Positions 21,015-28,916 of a DNA stretch of 62,173 bases are shown here, in pieces (the stretch's first letter is position 1; each line of letters opens with the position of its first letter). The stretch comes from Clostridia bacterium. GTDB lineage: Bacteria > Bacillota > Clostridia > Oscillospirales > Acutalibacteraceae. The notes under the pieces were generated by a model. It worked only from the letters and a program-made list of their open reading frames with translations, ran no database searches and had not been told where the DNA came from. The position numbers were made by a program, and so were the translations under genes. Location of the stretch: contig JAFQBE010000011.1 in assembly GCA_017416765.1 (NCBI GenBank), positions 1 through 62,173 of the forward strand, given 5' to 3'.

Positions 21015-21635
21015 ATGAAAACCTTTTCAAAAGTTTTGCAAGGTATTGTCGGCGGTTATGCAGCAGCTTCTGCGGTGCTGTATATGCCGAAAATAATTGA
21101 AGAATCAAAGAAAAATTACCGAGATAATTGCGATTACCTGCTGATACTCGGTTCAGGAGTAATCGGCGCAGATACTCCGAGCGAGCAGATGGTTTCCCGC
21201 ATGAAAACGGCAGCTCAATACCTGAAAGAAAACAAAACCTGCGTTGTAATTCCCTGCGGCGGCTGCTTCAGACCCGAACAAAAAATATCAGAGGCTCAGC
21301 TTATTGCAAATTATCTTGTTGAAACAGGTGTTGACGAAGGCAGAATAATTCTTGAGGATAATTCAACCACTACCTTTGAAAATTTTGAGTTTGCTAAAAA
21401 AATAATTGAAGAGCATTCGGGTAAATCAGTAAATGAATTAAAAGTTGCTTTTCTGTCTTCAAGCTACCATATTTTCAGGTCAGAGCATATTGCTTTCCTT
21501 TGCGGATTTAATAATATCGGCAAGGTTACTGCCCCTACGGGTAAGGATATGCCCAAACGCCTGATGCGTGAATATATAGTAATGCAGGAGCTTGTTTTTA
21601 AAACGCTTAAAAACAAATTGAAAAATAATTCTTGA
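21015..21635 (+). CDS. YdcF/ElyC-family (DUF218) protein
   Basis: A 206-residue protein of the DUF218 family. DYLLILGSGV begins the Rossmann-like core, followed by IPCGGC and the conserved EDNSTTTFENFEFAK segment, whose acidic and Thr/Ser residues mark the family. A weakly hydrophobic N-terminus may anchor it to the membrane. Relatives affect envelope polysaccharide or vancomycin-type sensitivity, but the biochemical role is unclear. Its stop codon (21633-21635) overlaps the -35 box of the next promoter. Confidence 0.85.
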   Translation: MKTFSKVLQGIVGGYAAASAVLYMPKIIEESKKNYRDNCDYLLILGSGVIGADTPSEQMVSRMKTAAQYLKENKTCVVIPCGGCFRPEQKISEAQLIANYLVETGVDEGRIILEDNSTTTFENFEFAKKIIEEHSGKSVNELKVAFLSSSYHIFRSEHIAFLCGFNNIGKVTAPTGKDMPKRLMREYIVMQELVFKTLKNKLKNNS

Positions 21636-21660
21636 CAAAATTCTTTTACGGTGTTATAGT
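21632..21660 (+). promoter_or_regulatory. Promoter of the attenuated methyltransferase operon
   Basis: TTGACA (21632-21637), exactly 17 bp, TATAGT (21655-21660). The transcript would start near 21667, leaving about 20 nt before the leader-peptide ATG. Confidence 0.88.
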
Positions 21661-21686
21661 GTCAAAAAACCAAACGAGGTAAATTC

Positions 21687-21797
21687 ATGAACACATATCT
21701 TTTCACAAAACTTGATATGGATATGAATTGGCTTGCACAGCATGATTATCAGTCAGCTTGCAGGCTTATACCTCTATATTCATTTTGGGATAGATAA
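21687..21797 (+). CDS. Candidate 36-residue regulatory leader peptide
   Basis: ATG at 21687 lies 6 nt after ACGAGGT and opens a 36-codon frame ending at TAA 21795-21797. The peptide begins MNTYLFTKLDMDMNW and ends CRLIPLYSFWDR. It sits between a near-consensus promoter and a perfect terminator hairpin (21819-21861) that precedes the methyltransferase gene. Codons 27-29 (GCTTATACC, 21764-21772) are complementary to GGTGTAAGT in the left arm of the terminator, so the reading frame overlaps a possible antiterminator. I infer ribosome-mediated attenuation in which stalling early in the leader frees the antiterminator. I do not recognise the peptide. Confidence 0.7.
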   Translation: MNTYLFTKLDMDMNWLAQHDYQSACRLIPLYSFWDR

Positions 21798-21818
21798 AAC
21801 TATATTTCCATATGTTTA

Positions 21819-21861
21819 TAACGGTGTAAGTAGCTGCAGATACTTACACCGTTAATTTTTA
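21819..21861 (+). terminator. Attenuator terminator before the methyltransferase gene
   Basis: TAACGGTGTAAGTA (21819-21832) and its exact complement (21841-21854) form a 14-bp stem with an 8-nt loop, followed by a T-run. No promoter lies between it and the coding start at 21894, so transcription must pass through it. Confidence 0.88.
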
Positions 21862-21893
21862 TATCCAAAATCAGATTTTAAAGGAGATTTGTT

Positions 21894-22730
21894 ATGAAAT
21901 TATTTGATTTAATCAAAAAGAAACTTTTCAAAAAGCAACCTGTGAAAACAGGTGATCATCTTGTAGATTTCTATAACCGTATTGATGAAGATTCCCGCCT
22001 TTTATCCAAACACGGAAGAATTGAATTCCTTACGACCGTGAAGTATGTTGAAAAATATCTGAAAGACGGTATGAGGATTATGGAAATCGGCGCCGCTACG
22101 GGCAGATATTCGCATTACTTTGCTCAAAAAGGTTTTGAGGTTGATGCTGTTGAACTCATCGAGCATAACATCGAGGTTTTCAAATCAAAAACACAGCCGA
22201 ATGAAAAAATCAGCATTAGGCAAGGTAATGCAGTCAATCTGTCCGAATTTCCCGATGAAAGCTATGATATAACGCTTTTGCTTGGTCCGATGTATCATCT
22301 CTATACGGTTGAAGATCAGAAAAAAGCACTGTCAGAAGCAATGCGAATTACCAAAAGCGACGGCTTTGTTTTTGTTGCATACTGTATGGTTGACCCTTCT
22401 GTTTTAACTGGAATTTTCAAAAATAATAAGGTGCAGTACAGCATAGAAAACGGTCTTATTGACACCGAAACTTTTGAAACATTCTTTCCTCCGCACGGTG
22501 TTTTTAAGCTATATACCAGAGATGAAATATTTGAACTTACCGAAAACTTGAATGCTCAAAGACTGCATTTTCTTGCAACCGATGGTTATGCCTGCCATAT
22601 GCGTGAAGTAATAGATAAAATGGATAACGAAACTTATGAACTGTATCTGAAATATCATTTCAAAACCTGCGAAAGGCAGGATTTAATCGGTTTATCGCAC
22701 CACACGCTTGATGTGTTGAGAAAGGAGTAG
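21894..22730 (+). CDS. Class I SAM-dependent methyltransferase
   Basis: A 278-residue cytosolic methyltransferase. The SAM-binding motif I is EIGAATG at residues 64-70, motif II (VDAVELIEHNI) follows, and DITLLLGPMYHL is the motif IV-like region. Before the core is a lysine-rich N-terminus and the conserved-looking YNRIDEDSRLLSKHGRIEFLTT. The substrate is unknown, and it lacks the features of Erm rRNA methylases. The placement behind a leader-peptide attenuator recalls antibiotic- or translation-responsive genes. The ribosome binding site is AAGGAGA. The phosphodiesterase gene follows after 3 bp. Confidence 0.88.
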   Translation: MKLFDLIKKKLFKKQPVKTGDHLVDFYNRIDEDSRLLSKHGRIEFLTTVKYVEKYLKDGMRIMEIGAATGRYSHYFAQKGFEVDAVELIEHNIEVFKSKTQPNEKISIRQGNAVNLSEFPDESYDITLLLGPMYHLYTVEDQKKALSEAMRITKSDGFVFVAYCMVDPSVLTGIFKNNKVQYSIENGLIDTETFETFFPPHGVFKLYTRDEIFELTENLNAQRLHFLATDGYACHMREVIDKMDNETYELYLKYHFKTCERQDLIGLSHHTLDVLRKE

Positions 22731-22733
22731 CTT

Positions 22734-23839
22734 ATGATTACATACCCGAATTATGACAGAAGCATTTTATCAATCGCTTCGTCTGTTTTAAACCACTTCG
22801 GTGTTAACGACTGCCAACATAAAACCTTACCCGAATTTGATGAATTGCTTGAAAAAGACTACAAAAATATAATCGTGATGCTTTTTGATGGCCTGGGCGT
22901 TTCGGCAATCAACGAACATCTGAACGAAAATGATTTTTTGAGAAAACATTTTGTGTGTCCGATTTCATCTGTATTCCCCTCAACAACAGTTACCGCTACA
23001 ACATCAATTATGAGCGGATATTCACCTGCCGAATGCGGTTGGCTGGGTTGGGATTTATACTTTGAGGAAATAGGCGAGAATGTAGCAGTATTCCGTAATG
23101 CTTTACAGAAAAACGGTAAGCCTGCCGCAGAATATAATGTCGCTTGGCGATATATTCCGTATAAAGATATTTTTAAGCGCATTGAAGAAATAAACGGGAA
23201 AGGTACTGCTTACTGTGTTTCACCGTTTTCAAAATTTCATTCAAAAAGTGTACCTCATATTTGCAGAACCGTAAAACGGCTTTCAAGAAAAAATATATTT
23301 ACACTTATTGGTATCAACCCGATAAAGCAATGCACGGCTACGGTGTGAAAAGTGAGCAGGCGCACGAACAGATTTTATTGATTAACAAAGCGGTTGAGCG
23401 GCTTTGCAAAAGTCTGAAAAATTCGCTCGTTATTATCACCGCCGACCACGGACTGTGCGACAGCGTGAATGTATATCTTGAAGACTATCCCGAACTTTAT
23501 GCAAAGCTGAAAATCCCTCCTTCAATAGAGCCGAGCAGAGCTTTGAGTTTGTTTGTAAAAGACGGTATGAAGGATAATTTCAGAAACGAGTTTATCAAAC
23601 TTTTCGGAAATGATTTCAGGCTTATGACAAAGGAAGAAGTATTCGCAGAAAATCTTTTGGGATTTGGTAAACTACACCCGAGAACTTATGATTTTGTCGG
23701 CGATTTTCTCGCCATAGCAACGGGAAACAAATCATTGTTTATAGAGCGTGAAGAACACGAAATTGTCGGTGTTCATGCCGGTCTTACCGAAGATGAAATG
23801 ACCGTACCGTTTATTGCAATAGAAAGGGCGGGGATTTAA
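22734..23839 (+). pseudogene. Type I phosphodiesterase/nucleotide pyrophosphatase-like gene, -1 frameshift
   Basis: Two overlapping frames (22734-23348 and, in the -1 frame, up to 23839) together encode a roughly 368-residue alkaline-phosphatase-superfamily hydrolase. The first part has the metal site MLFDGLG and the threonine nucleophile region SVFPSTTVTATTS. The second has YTYWYQPDKAMHGYG, ITADHG and the final VGVHAG metal-site histidine. The frames join at A_AAA_AAT (23288-23294); one extra A there restores the whole protein. It is therefore a recent indel, a sequencing error, or -1 ribosomal frameshifting. The ATG has AAAGGAG upstream and the gene is in an operon with the methyltransferase. 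Confidence 0.8.
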
Positions 23840-27226: not shown

Positions 27227-27258
27227 TTATATGAAAACAAATACGGAAGGTGAACGGC

Positions 27259-28188
27259 TTGGAAATTTTAAAATCCGATAATTCTTTTTTGATTGCAGCT
27301 CTGAAAAATATTGTAAGCGAAGAACTGAATGTTACGGTAAACACAATTAATTTTATTGCAGGCGGCAGTAATGGCAAGGTTTTCAAAGCCGAAACCTCCG
27401 ATGGCAGTGTGCTTGCACTTAAAGCCTACCGCGAGCAGGGTAATCAGCTGCGCGAAGCCGCACAGCTTCGCATACTTTCGGCTAACACCGCCGTACCAAT
27501 GCCCGAGGTTGTTTTTACCCATGCTGATGCCCAAACCGCAGTTCTTGCCATGACTTTTATTGACGGACACAATGTTTTAAATCCAGCTTTTTTGCTTAAA
27601 AGCAAAGCGCAAAAGCAGAGGTTTGCCGCCGATGTTATAAACGGCATGAGCATGTGGCATGAACTAAGCAGTAAAAAATTCGGTGCGCTGGATAATCCGC
27701 AGTACGGAACATGGCTTGAATACTATATAAAAGAGAAACAAGAGCCGTGGCTTAAAGCACTTGAAGCCCTTAACAAAAAAGGTAAATTCAGCAGTAAAAG
27801 GCTCGATTTACTCTATCGCGCAAGTGAATTGTTTGAGCGTGTTTATACTGAACCTGAAAAGGCTGTGCTTATACATGGCGACCTTAATATTATGAACATA
27901 ATGGCTGATATAAAAACGTTTGAGCTGAACGGCTTTATTGACCCTATGGGTTCAATGTGGGCTGACAGGGAGTACGATTTGTTTCAGCTTATGAATATGT
28001 GGGGCAACAGCTTTTATCTTTATGAAACCTATAAAAGTAAACATTCTTTACCGAAAGAAAGCGATTTCCGCGTTGCATATTACGGTGCGATGAATGAAGC
28101 ATCATGCCGCCTCGGCAGCGGAATACATATACCGGTATGGGAAGAACTGTGCATAATGCGCCTTGAAAAGCAAATGAAAATTTTCTGA
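27259..28188 (+). CDS. Aminoglycoside-phosphotransferase-fold kinase
   Basis: A 309-residue kinase-like protein. FIAGGSNGKVFKAET is the glycine-rich loop, LKAYRE gives the ATP lysine, and HGDLNIMNIM is the catalytic loop with H206, D208 and N213. IDPMG follows with the metal Asp D228. Family members phosphorylate fructosamines, choline, homoserine or antibiotics; nothing here indicates drug resistance. I start at TTG 27259, which has AAGGTGA 5 nt upstream; a GTG at 27250 would add three residues and overlap that site. It is probably co-transcribed with the AraC-type gene. Confidence 0.85.
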   Translation: MEILKSDNSFLIAALKNIVSEELNVTVNTINFIAGGSNGKVFKAETSDGSVLALKAYREQGNQLREAAQLRILSANTAVPMPEVVFTHADAQTAVLAMTFIDGHNVLNPAFLLKSKAQKQRFAADVINGMSMWHELSSKKFGALDNPQYGTWLEYYIKEKQEPWLKALEALNKKGKFSSKRLDLLYRASELFERVYTEPEKAVLIHGDLNIMNIMADIKTFELNGFIDPMGSMWADREYDLFQLMNMWGNSFYLYETYKSKHSLPKESDFRVAYYGAMNEASCRLGSGIHIPVWEELCIMRLEKQMKIF

Positions 28189-28205
28189 AAACCGTGGTGA
28201 GAAAA

Positions 28206-28916
28206 ATGAATTTAGGTCAGCTTGTCAGCATAAAAACCTTGGATAACAGCACAAAGCATACACCGTATGCGGCTGAAATACGGCTTTTTTCCTGCGTTCA
28301 GCAGGGTAATATTGACCGCCTTATTGAAGAACTTAAAAATCTTGATTCTGTTCTTGTTACCGGAAAGCTGTCGGAGGATAATATAAAAAATTCAAAATAT
28401 CTTGCCGTCAGCACCGTAACCCTTGCAACACGCTACGCAATTCAGGGCGGGCTTGATGAAAAAACAGCATATACCTTTTCAGATGAATCTATTATGATTA
28501 TTGACGGTGCTGCTTCTTCGCGTGATGTTTTCAACCTTGTTGCCCGGCGTATTATTCAGCTTACCGATATGGTGAAAAATTCAAAACTGAAACCCAAGCA
28601 GTCGCCCCATGTCAAAAAATGTATTCGCTACATTAATGCAAACTTAAATAAAAAAATTACCGTTTCGTTACTGGCAGATGTATGCGGAGTATCGTCCGAT
28701 TATCTTTCGCATATTTTCAAGGAAGAAATGGGCGAAAATTTAAGCGCATATATATTGAGGATAAAGCTTGAAGCTGCTAAAGAGATGATAGCAAATAAAG
28801 CAACCAACCGCGAAATCTGCGATAAGCTCGGCTTTTCTTCACAGCCCCATTTTGTAACAGCCTTCAAAAAGCATTGCGGTATGACTCCCGGAGAATACTA
28901 TAGCCTTGTTAAGTGA
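28206..28916 (+). CDS. AraC-family transcriptional regulator
   Basis: A 236-residue regulator. The C-terminal 100 residues carry the two helix-turn-helix motifs: VSLLADVCGVSSDYLSHIF and the later NREICDKLGFSSQPHFVTAFK, ending with GMTPGEYY. The N-terminal 130 residues are not a cupin; they contain short helices with LATRYAIQGGLDE, as in regulators related to YSIRK-type AraC proteins, and the ligand is unknown. The ATG at 28206 follows GGTGAG, and a GTG at 28194 is the alternative. It lies 17 bp after the kinase gene and may regulate the beta-helix protein gene downstream. Confidence 0.9.
   Translation: MNLGQLVSIKTLDNSTKHTPYAAEIRLFSCVQQGNIDRLIEELKNLDSVLVTGKLSEDNIKNSKYLAVSTVTLATRYAIQGGLDEKTAYTFSDESIMIIDGAASSRDVFNLVARRIIQLTDMVKNSKLKPKQSPHVKKCIRYINANLNKKITVSLLADVCGVSSDYLSHIFKEEMGENLSAYILRIKLEAAKEMIANKATNREICDKLGFSSQPHFVTAFKKHCGMTPGEYYSLVK

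Follow-up and report, generated by a model that had tools for sequence, protein, structure and literature searches.

The region between the methyltransferase gene and its 5′ neighbour, a DUF218 gene (21015-21635), in the window (the whole 62,173-nucleotide stretch of DNA analysed here, contig C26 of a 2.77 Mb genome in 47 contigs) very probably attenuates transcription in a ribosome-mediated manner by switching among three RNA states, and its RNA core appears to serve unrelated enzymes. Sequence comparison establishes two alternative helices that covary, a leader ORF together with its position, and the spread of the element over gene families. Two features place the region among attenuators, namely, a leader ORF with a ribosome binding site, located downstream of a promoter and displaying signs of translation, and a terminator and an antiterminator that are mutually exclusive, the 5′ arm of the latter lying within or beside the leader ORF.

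The three elements that the first-pass annotation had placed upstream of the methyltransferase, a near-consensus promoter, a 36-codon ORF with its own ribosome binding site and a perfect 14-bp terminator, are all present (Table 1). The promoter scores 11 of 12, the highest among 19 sites in 5 kb, and scores of 10-11 recur in 18 of the 19 window-type copies, with 9 of 12 in the remaining copy, L033. We further assembled a wider set, 87 of 96 non-redundant leaders, selected with thresholds on the terminator, the antiterminator and the position of the stop codon, so that these features are partly built in; 61 of the 87 are window-type, as defined by a blastp E<1e-25 against the window enzyme, 21 belong to other genes and 5 have no gene in view. 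In 77 of these 87, the leader is immediately preceded by a promoter scoring at least 10 of 12, the mean best score being 10.8 compared to 7.0 in shuffled sequences. The leader ORF translates as MNTYLFTKLDMDMNWLAQHDYQSACRLIPLYSFWDR, and ATTTTTATAT directly follows the terminator stem. The terminator U-tract is short (ATTTTTAT), which counts against the attenuator reading. The leader RNA (21661-21870) as a whole is predicted to be much more stable than its shuffled versions (-60.2 vs -34.5 kcal/mol, z -6.25, none of the 200 shuffles as good).

Table 1. Features of the attenuator region and of the genes downstream of it, in window coordinates
Feature	Position	Strand	Description
Promoter	21632-21660	+	-35 TTGACA 21632-21637, 17-bp spacer, -10 TATAGT 21655-21660, TG before -10
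Ribosome binding site of leader ORF	21676-21680	+	GAGGT (GAGG 21676-21679)
Leader ORF	21687-21797	+	36 codons, of which the 15th (21729-21731) and the 34th encode Trp
Anti-antiterminator hairpin (predicted)	21730-21766	+	GGCUUGCA (21730-21737, codons 15-17) with UGCAGGCU (21759-21766)
Antiterminator 5′ arm (predicted), within leader ORF	21758-21772	+	UUGCAG GCUUAUACC
Intrinsic terminator	21819-21862	+	14-bp stem 21819-21832 / 21841-21854, then ATTTTTAT
Antiterminator 3′ arm (predicted), equal to terminator left arm and loop	21823-21839	+	GGUGUAAGU AG CUGCAG
Class I SAM-dependent methyltransferase, 278 aa	21894-22730	+	PF08241; putative regulated gene
Type I phosphodiesterase/nucleotide pyrophosphatase-like, presumed operon gene 2	22734-23839	+	overlapping frames 22734-23348 and 23261-23839

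The 8-bp pairing proposed earlier between CTTATACC (21765-21772), inside the leader ORF, and GGTGTAAG (21823-21830), in the left arm of the terminator, holds. In the predicted fold, the antiterminator is longer and joins 21764-21772 with 21823-21831 and then 21758-21763 with 21834-21839; the segment 21755-21840 that contains it is predicted at -27.3 kcal/mol (z -4.2). The ribosome-free leader (21667-21780, predicted at -34.1 kcal/mol, z -5.3) would pair the ribosome binding site (21676-21681) with 21769-21774 and the start region with 21722-21729, and because GGCUUGCA and the binding site are both paired in this fold, the antiterminator arm would be locked. The anti-antiterminator, the longer form of the antiterminator and the other enzyme families described below are additions to the first-pass annotation, as obtained by this comparison. 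That annotation had also called for folding of both RNA states; the three states were indeed predicted, although beyond position 21740 the antiterminator and the terminator appear to be close in energy, given that, for the RNA with its first part removed as it would be by a ribosome (21740-21861), the minimum-energy structure is the antiterminator and the centroid is the terminator. Among the 87 leaders, the antiterminator arm pairs more with its own upstream leader than with a shuffled one in 77 cases (mean 0.75 vs 0.59, single-base shuffles). An additional inner antiterminator helix, suggested by eye, was only slightly better than shuffled sequences (mean run 5.9 vs 5.1) and is not claimed.

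Both alternative helices evolve in a correlated manner. For this analysis, L010, L049, L108, L025 and sequences more than 93% alike were skipped, leaving 56 candidate leaders, and alignment A2 comprises 52 of these after removal by hand of L063, L075, L085 and L124, two of which (L075 and L085) have a weak or shifted antiterminator. In A2, 92.3% of the 572 cells of the antiterminator helix are paired, with changes on both sides at 8 of 11 pairs, and 93.9% of the 624 cells of the terminator helix are paired, with changes on both sides at 11 of 12 pairs, results that are favoured by the choice of leaders with a detectable terminator and by the four removals. For both helices, none of 500 shuffles equalled the fraction of paired cells, the number of pairs with both-side changes or the score for covariation, and the number of pair types was matched by 8 and 6 of 500 for the antiterminator and the terminator, respectively. 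When the partner strand was slid to other registers, pairing fell to 29.8-40.7% (antiterminator) and 23.9-47.0% (terminator). Because the left arm of the terminator is common to the two helices, the covariation amounts to a three-way one.

A search for homologues of the methyltransferase detected them in 22 of 59 genomes, including that of the window, and in 50 of the 300 family genomes at E<=1e-30; in named genomes, the best 80 of at least 564 stretches were kept. Among the matches listed, the closest named relatives are metagenome-assembled Clostridia and Oscillospiraceae, mostly, judging by title, from the ruminant gut. The view that the arrangement of the leader region exceeds chance is borne out by the six close genus copies (the window, L001, and L002-L006, at least 72% identity), all of which carry the promoter, the leader ORF and the terminator, as well as by the covariation of both helices. 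Of the other five genus genomes, G002 carries a homologue at 40% (L010) that likewise has a leader and a terminator of its own, G008 yielded a weak match only, and no methyltransferase homologue was found in G006, G007 and G009. The presence of a small ORF and a terminator upstream of homologues had been set beforehand as a test, and the element was detected at E<=1e-4 in 61 of the 80 loci (the best 80 of at least 564). These include all 41 loci that served to build the model and 20 of the 39 unused ones, at least three of which (L037, L043, L072) are, judging by length, the same contigs as training loci. Cultured commensals, namely, Pseudoflavonifractor sp. An44 and Negativibacillus massiliensis, are among the carriers of the element. 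The element was not detected at this threshold in the other 19 of these best 80 loci, nor upstream of the Subdoligranulum variabile homologue L275. Of 115 non-identical upstream regions, which include those of distant homologues, 73 have a terminator that a script could locate; it found none in the other 42, many of which belong to distant homologues. These loci with no element or terminator count against the attenuator reading.

A search with covariance model R1 matched 109 of the 300 family genomes at E<=0.01 and 29 at E<=1e-6, and 83 of 394 genomes of the order at E<=1e-4 and 52 at E<=1e-6; the matches at E<=1e-6 look sound. Across the phylum, in 348 genomes of which few belong to this order, two matched at E<=1e-6, namely, the window's own and G048, from the same order. 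The window itself scores 90.5 bits with the element model. A second match in its genome (C12:343-469, E 2.4e-5), with no leader or gene found by the script, was taken as a chance hit. The strongest match in the family genomes, L141:1501-1634 (reverse strand, G185:C39; E 2.0e-25), has a full leader, and with no gene found by the script directly downstream, it can be classified, from its sequence, as an orphan or decayed copy. The leader of L023 matched nothing among plasmids by blastn, and scanning viral contigs with a pattern of the antiterminator-terminator core gave 0 exact matches and thus no sign of phage carriage with that pattern. At the gathering thresholds of Rfam 15, neither the window nor ten related loci had a match; below threshold, the region 21600-21900 had seven at E<=5, the best of these at E 0.55, that is, at chance level.

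The arrangement of these elements suggests how the attenuator would operate. With no ribosome on the leader, the ribosome binding site and codons 15-17 would pair with the antiterminator 5′ arm, the terminator would form and the gene would be off. If a ribosome were to pause with roughly codons 12-20 (DMNWLAQHD) in its P site, it would open this lock while leaving the arm uncovered; the arm would then pair with the left arm and loop of the terminator, and RNA polymerase would read into the methyltransferase gene. A ribosome footprint extends about 15 nt downstream of the P-site codon. Beyond codon 20, the ribosome would cover the antiterminator arm, and with a ribosome that reaches the stop codon, the terminator would form again, so that the overall behaviour would be off-on-off. 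The earlier proposal that an early stall frees the arm and a finishing ribosome covers it is consistent with the geometry, with the arm inside the ORF and the stop codon before the terminator.

The signs of translation of the leader come mostly from its Trp codon. The first-pass annotation had anticipated a bias of the leader towards synonymous change along with a conserved ORF and terminator upstream of homologues; the latter stands, and of the former there is only a weak sign. The pN/pS ratio is 0.69 before the antiterminator arm and 0.79 after it in 25 distinct leaders, which were picked for having WLA, so that the invariant WLA residues are built in, and which include the poorly aligned L189 from another clade; the test is weak in part because the stretch before the arm is also constrained as an RNA pairing arm. 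More telling is the reading frame. In 60 window-type leaders, a TGG triplet located 6-21 nt before the antiterminator shares the frame of the ORF in 46 instances and does not in 10. The arm itself falls into each of the three frames relative to the ORF, in 39, 14 and 7 leaders, of which 27, 12 and 3, respectively, have a TGG in frame. Because the TGG keeps to the frame of the ORF while that of the arm varies, Trp seems to be kept as an amino acid and the ORF is probably translated. A stop codon separates the arm from the terminator in all 87 kept leaders, in part by construction of the search.

The N-terminal part of the leader, up to Gln22, is conserved (window-type consensus MxTYLxxKxDMxMxWLAQxDY, with exceptions). 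In L004-L006, one extra base after Gln22 shifts the remainder into another frame and alters the end of the peptide; the RNA GCAGGCTTA is retained despite the frameshift, and translation would stop at nearly the same place. In general, the aligned leader peptides are very diverse compared to the conserved RNA core. The Trp residue is also associated with the type of regulated gene. Of the 61 window-type leaders, 52 encode Trp within the last 45 nt ahead of the arm, compared to 5 of the 21 leaders of other genes (Fisher p 4.9e-7, uncorrected for relatedness among the leaders). The frame and residue counts and the Fisher test were made with a slightly different split, with 60 window-type leaders, 22 others (27 with the gene-less ones) and 51 leaders with Trp.

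These observations bear on what the leader would sense. Because the RNA core stays the same and the peptide varies upstream of unrelated detoxification-type enzymes in related bacteria, the leader peptide is probably an exchangeable sensor. Cargo of this type points to compounds acting on translation; the usual inducer would probably be a ribosome-stalling small molecule, such as an antibiotic or a comparable compound, and the enzyme likely modifies the inducing molecule or its target. A less likely reading, although the most serious of the alternatives, is a general translation-stress attenuator that any inhibitor slowing or stalling ribosomes on the leader would induce, with the peptide sequence being of little importance, as has been proposed for toiL (PMC12121999). 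The diversity of the peptides over a conserved RNA core agrees with such a mechanism, as does the maintenance of the RNA in L004-L006 where the C-terminal peptide is read in another frame; the association of Trp with the window-type cargo, however, suggests specific sensing. Stalling at Trp would fit either drug-dependent arrest or a shortage of charged Trp-tRNA, and the cargo favours the former. Starvation attenuation, as in the trp and ilv leaders, in which the ribosome would wait at the Trp codon (or at Asp codons) when charged tRNA is scarce, is an improbable explanation. Trp is the most common residue at codons -20 to -6 of the window-type leaders (43 of 60), a placement such that a waiting ribosome would leave the arm free. 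However, most of these leaders have a single Trp before the arm, with two in about nine (by eye), 16 of the 21 leaders of other genes have none in the 45 nt before the arm, and nothing evident connects the regulated genes with Trp metabolism. The window, with one Trp before the arm and cargo unrelated to Trp, was therefore rejected as a leader of the Trp-operon type.

Two further explanations fare worse. That the hairpin merely insulates the gene, with a spurious small ORF, or acts as a riboswitch without translation, we consider very unlikely: the hairpin is the most conserved piece and the pN/pS of the ORF is weak, as such explanations would have it, but a promoter belongs to the leader itself, covariation links the antiterminator arm to the terminator arm, the TGG remains in frame as the arm shifts frame, and the position of the stop codon, partly built in as it is, points the same way. 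Least credible of all is membership in the leader families of tet ribosomal-protection or macrolide (RLR/RYR) type. Among 40 tet- and Erm-type loci, 20 per search, 13 and 7 of which exceed the respective family cut-off, 13 match the element model weakly, at E<=1, and 12 of these matches are located 5′ of tet genes, where they fall within a GGGCTTR...TTGTACCCA stretch. The tet loci score 9.8-15.1 bits compared to the 90.5 bits of the window, and the strongest of the 13 matches, L266 (17.5 bits), lies behind a KsgA/Erm-type gene. By eye, the small ORF of the tet loci, MRQGILK, ends before the GGGCTTR stretch, and their downstream terminator arm does not pair with it. With a different ORF and terminator and weak model matches only, the tet assignment was rejected, and the macrolide-type assignment likewise, since the window peptide lacks the R/K-x-R/K arrest motif. 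The weak matches cover 12 of the 13 above-cut-off tet genes (L235-L246, not L247; for example, L237:1288-1402), and their sequences suggest convergence or a very distant relation.

The logic of the proposed attenuator is known from other bacteria. As in the window, tlrB (yxjB) of Bacillus subtilis has a leader peptide and an intrinsic terminator before a methyltransferase gene, and ribosome stalling on the leader switches the gene on; in the account given there, the stalled ribosome itself blocks the terminator, an RYR motif ends a 9-residue peptide, and translation attenuation and NusG pausing also contribute (PMC6851288). The window element, in contrast, has a conserved antiterminator and anti-antiterminator and a peptide of about 36 residues. 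The closest parallel is rli80-hflXr of Listeria monocytogenes, which is described as having a terminator, an antiterminator, an anti-antiterminator and a small ORF in the anti-antiterminator region, and the three-state logic of which is, by analogy, the same as that proposed here; it differs in its 14-residue peptide with RLR and in controlling the gene of a ribosome-splitting factor (PMC6310831). In rli53-lmo0919 and whiB7/wblC, as reported, uORF translation promotes a Rho-independent terminator and drug stress favours the antiterminator, but the bacteria and the genes are different, and whiB7 encodes a regulator, whereas the enzymes would be controlled directly in the window type (PMC11550727). 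The toiL-topAI system of Escherichia coli similarly senses ribosome-targeting antibiotics with a uORF through RNA rearrangement, but is described as acting on translation, with Rho-dependent termination following (PMC12121999). A survey of 50 genomes reported eight uORF motifs, and the two that it shows differ from the window element (PMC11109978). Among the titles listed in searches of open-licence papers, none describes an attenuator common to methyltransferase and GNAT genes in Clostridia, which is weak evidence of absence. In the best reading of these comparisons, the logic is known from rli80-hflXr and approached by tlrB, whiB7 and toiL, and the element is a conserved core with an exchangeable peptide that has no Rfam match.

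The genes behind the element were surveyed at 94 matched loci, some of them weak and not all independent; the script saw no leader in 10 and no gene in 13, and it can miss genes, as at L228, where the homologue search places a methyltransferase. From these, 20 proteins were scanned against Pfam and 10 of the 20 against NCBIfam. Besides window-type methyltransferases and other methyltransferase groups, the cargo includes GNAT acetyltransferases and GNAT-methyltransferase fusions, PNP/UDP phosphorylases (L202, L203, L212), P-loop kinase-like proteins (L183, L194; below the Pfam cut-off), an S66 peptidase (L145), an S51 peptidase (L196) and an ANT(6)-like adenylyltransferase (L207; Adenyl_transf, 348 bits). 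The latter is the sole match to a named resistance family, although below the cut-off (248.9 vs 420 bits for NCBIfam ANT_6). Thus, about seven unrelated superfamilies follow one RNA core, three of these at a single locus each and one below the Pfam cut-off. At L204 (G048:C31), L205 and L206, proteins of 451-469 aa with a GNAT-like start lie behind the element, and in G048 (L204) the GNAT-like open frame continues into a methyltransferase. Single-linkage grouping joined GNATs to methyltransferases, probably via fusions like this one, and was not used for family counts; a MetRS-like candidate (L224) with a weak antiterminator score failed the leader filter and was not counted.

This distribution leads us to a tentative proposal, which we place just short of an even chance. 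A single portable control cassette would be present across an order of gut Clostridia, with its antiterminator and terminator retained and the peptide swapped to match the cargo; each peptide would sense the compound that its enzyme disarms, and the window-type methyltransferase would be a putative inducible resistance enzyme. If so, the inducing compound would arrest ribosomes at a Trp located some 13-26 residues from the start of the peptide, and as yet unrecognised resistance genes could be searched for by means of the element. Because one RNA core precedes about seven superfamilies, it offers a handle for genome mining, and the genes behind it, including enzymes without an assigned substrate, become candidate determinants of inducible resistance to inhibitors of translation. 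Attenuators with a leader peptide have usually been reported gene by gene, whereas here one core has many cargoes, and the link between the peptide (Trp) and the cargo opens the question of how leader peptides gain drug specificity to direct testing.

Fold and profile searches with the window methyltransferase recovered generic class I enzymes only (2avn, TM 0.69; 3l8d; CmoM). An assignment to the Erm 23S rRNA methyltransferases was rejected (17.6 bits vs a cut-off of 212), and the 23 NCBIfam matches listed include no RlmA model. The phosphodiesterase-like gene, split over two frames in the window, is open for 367-374 codons in 18 of 19 other matching loci, duplicates included (L037, L043 and L044 equal L003, L006 and L005), and stops after 58 codons in L035. 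Further downstream, the window contains an APH/fructosamine-kinase-like gene (27250-28188) followed by an AraC-type regulator gene (28194-28916), with no sign of a link to the element. At L065, L070 and L073, a distance of about 1.1-1.2 kb separates the end of the element from the window-type methyltransferase gene, and in L195, L197 and L188, on contigs of identical lengths, another methyltransferase gene lies in between; the element, the second methyltransferase type and the window-type methyltransferase apparently form one operon at these loci.
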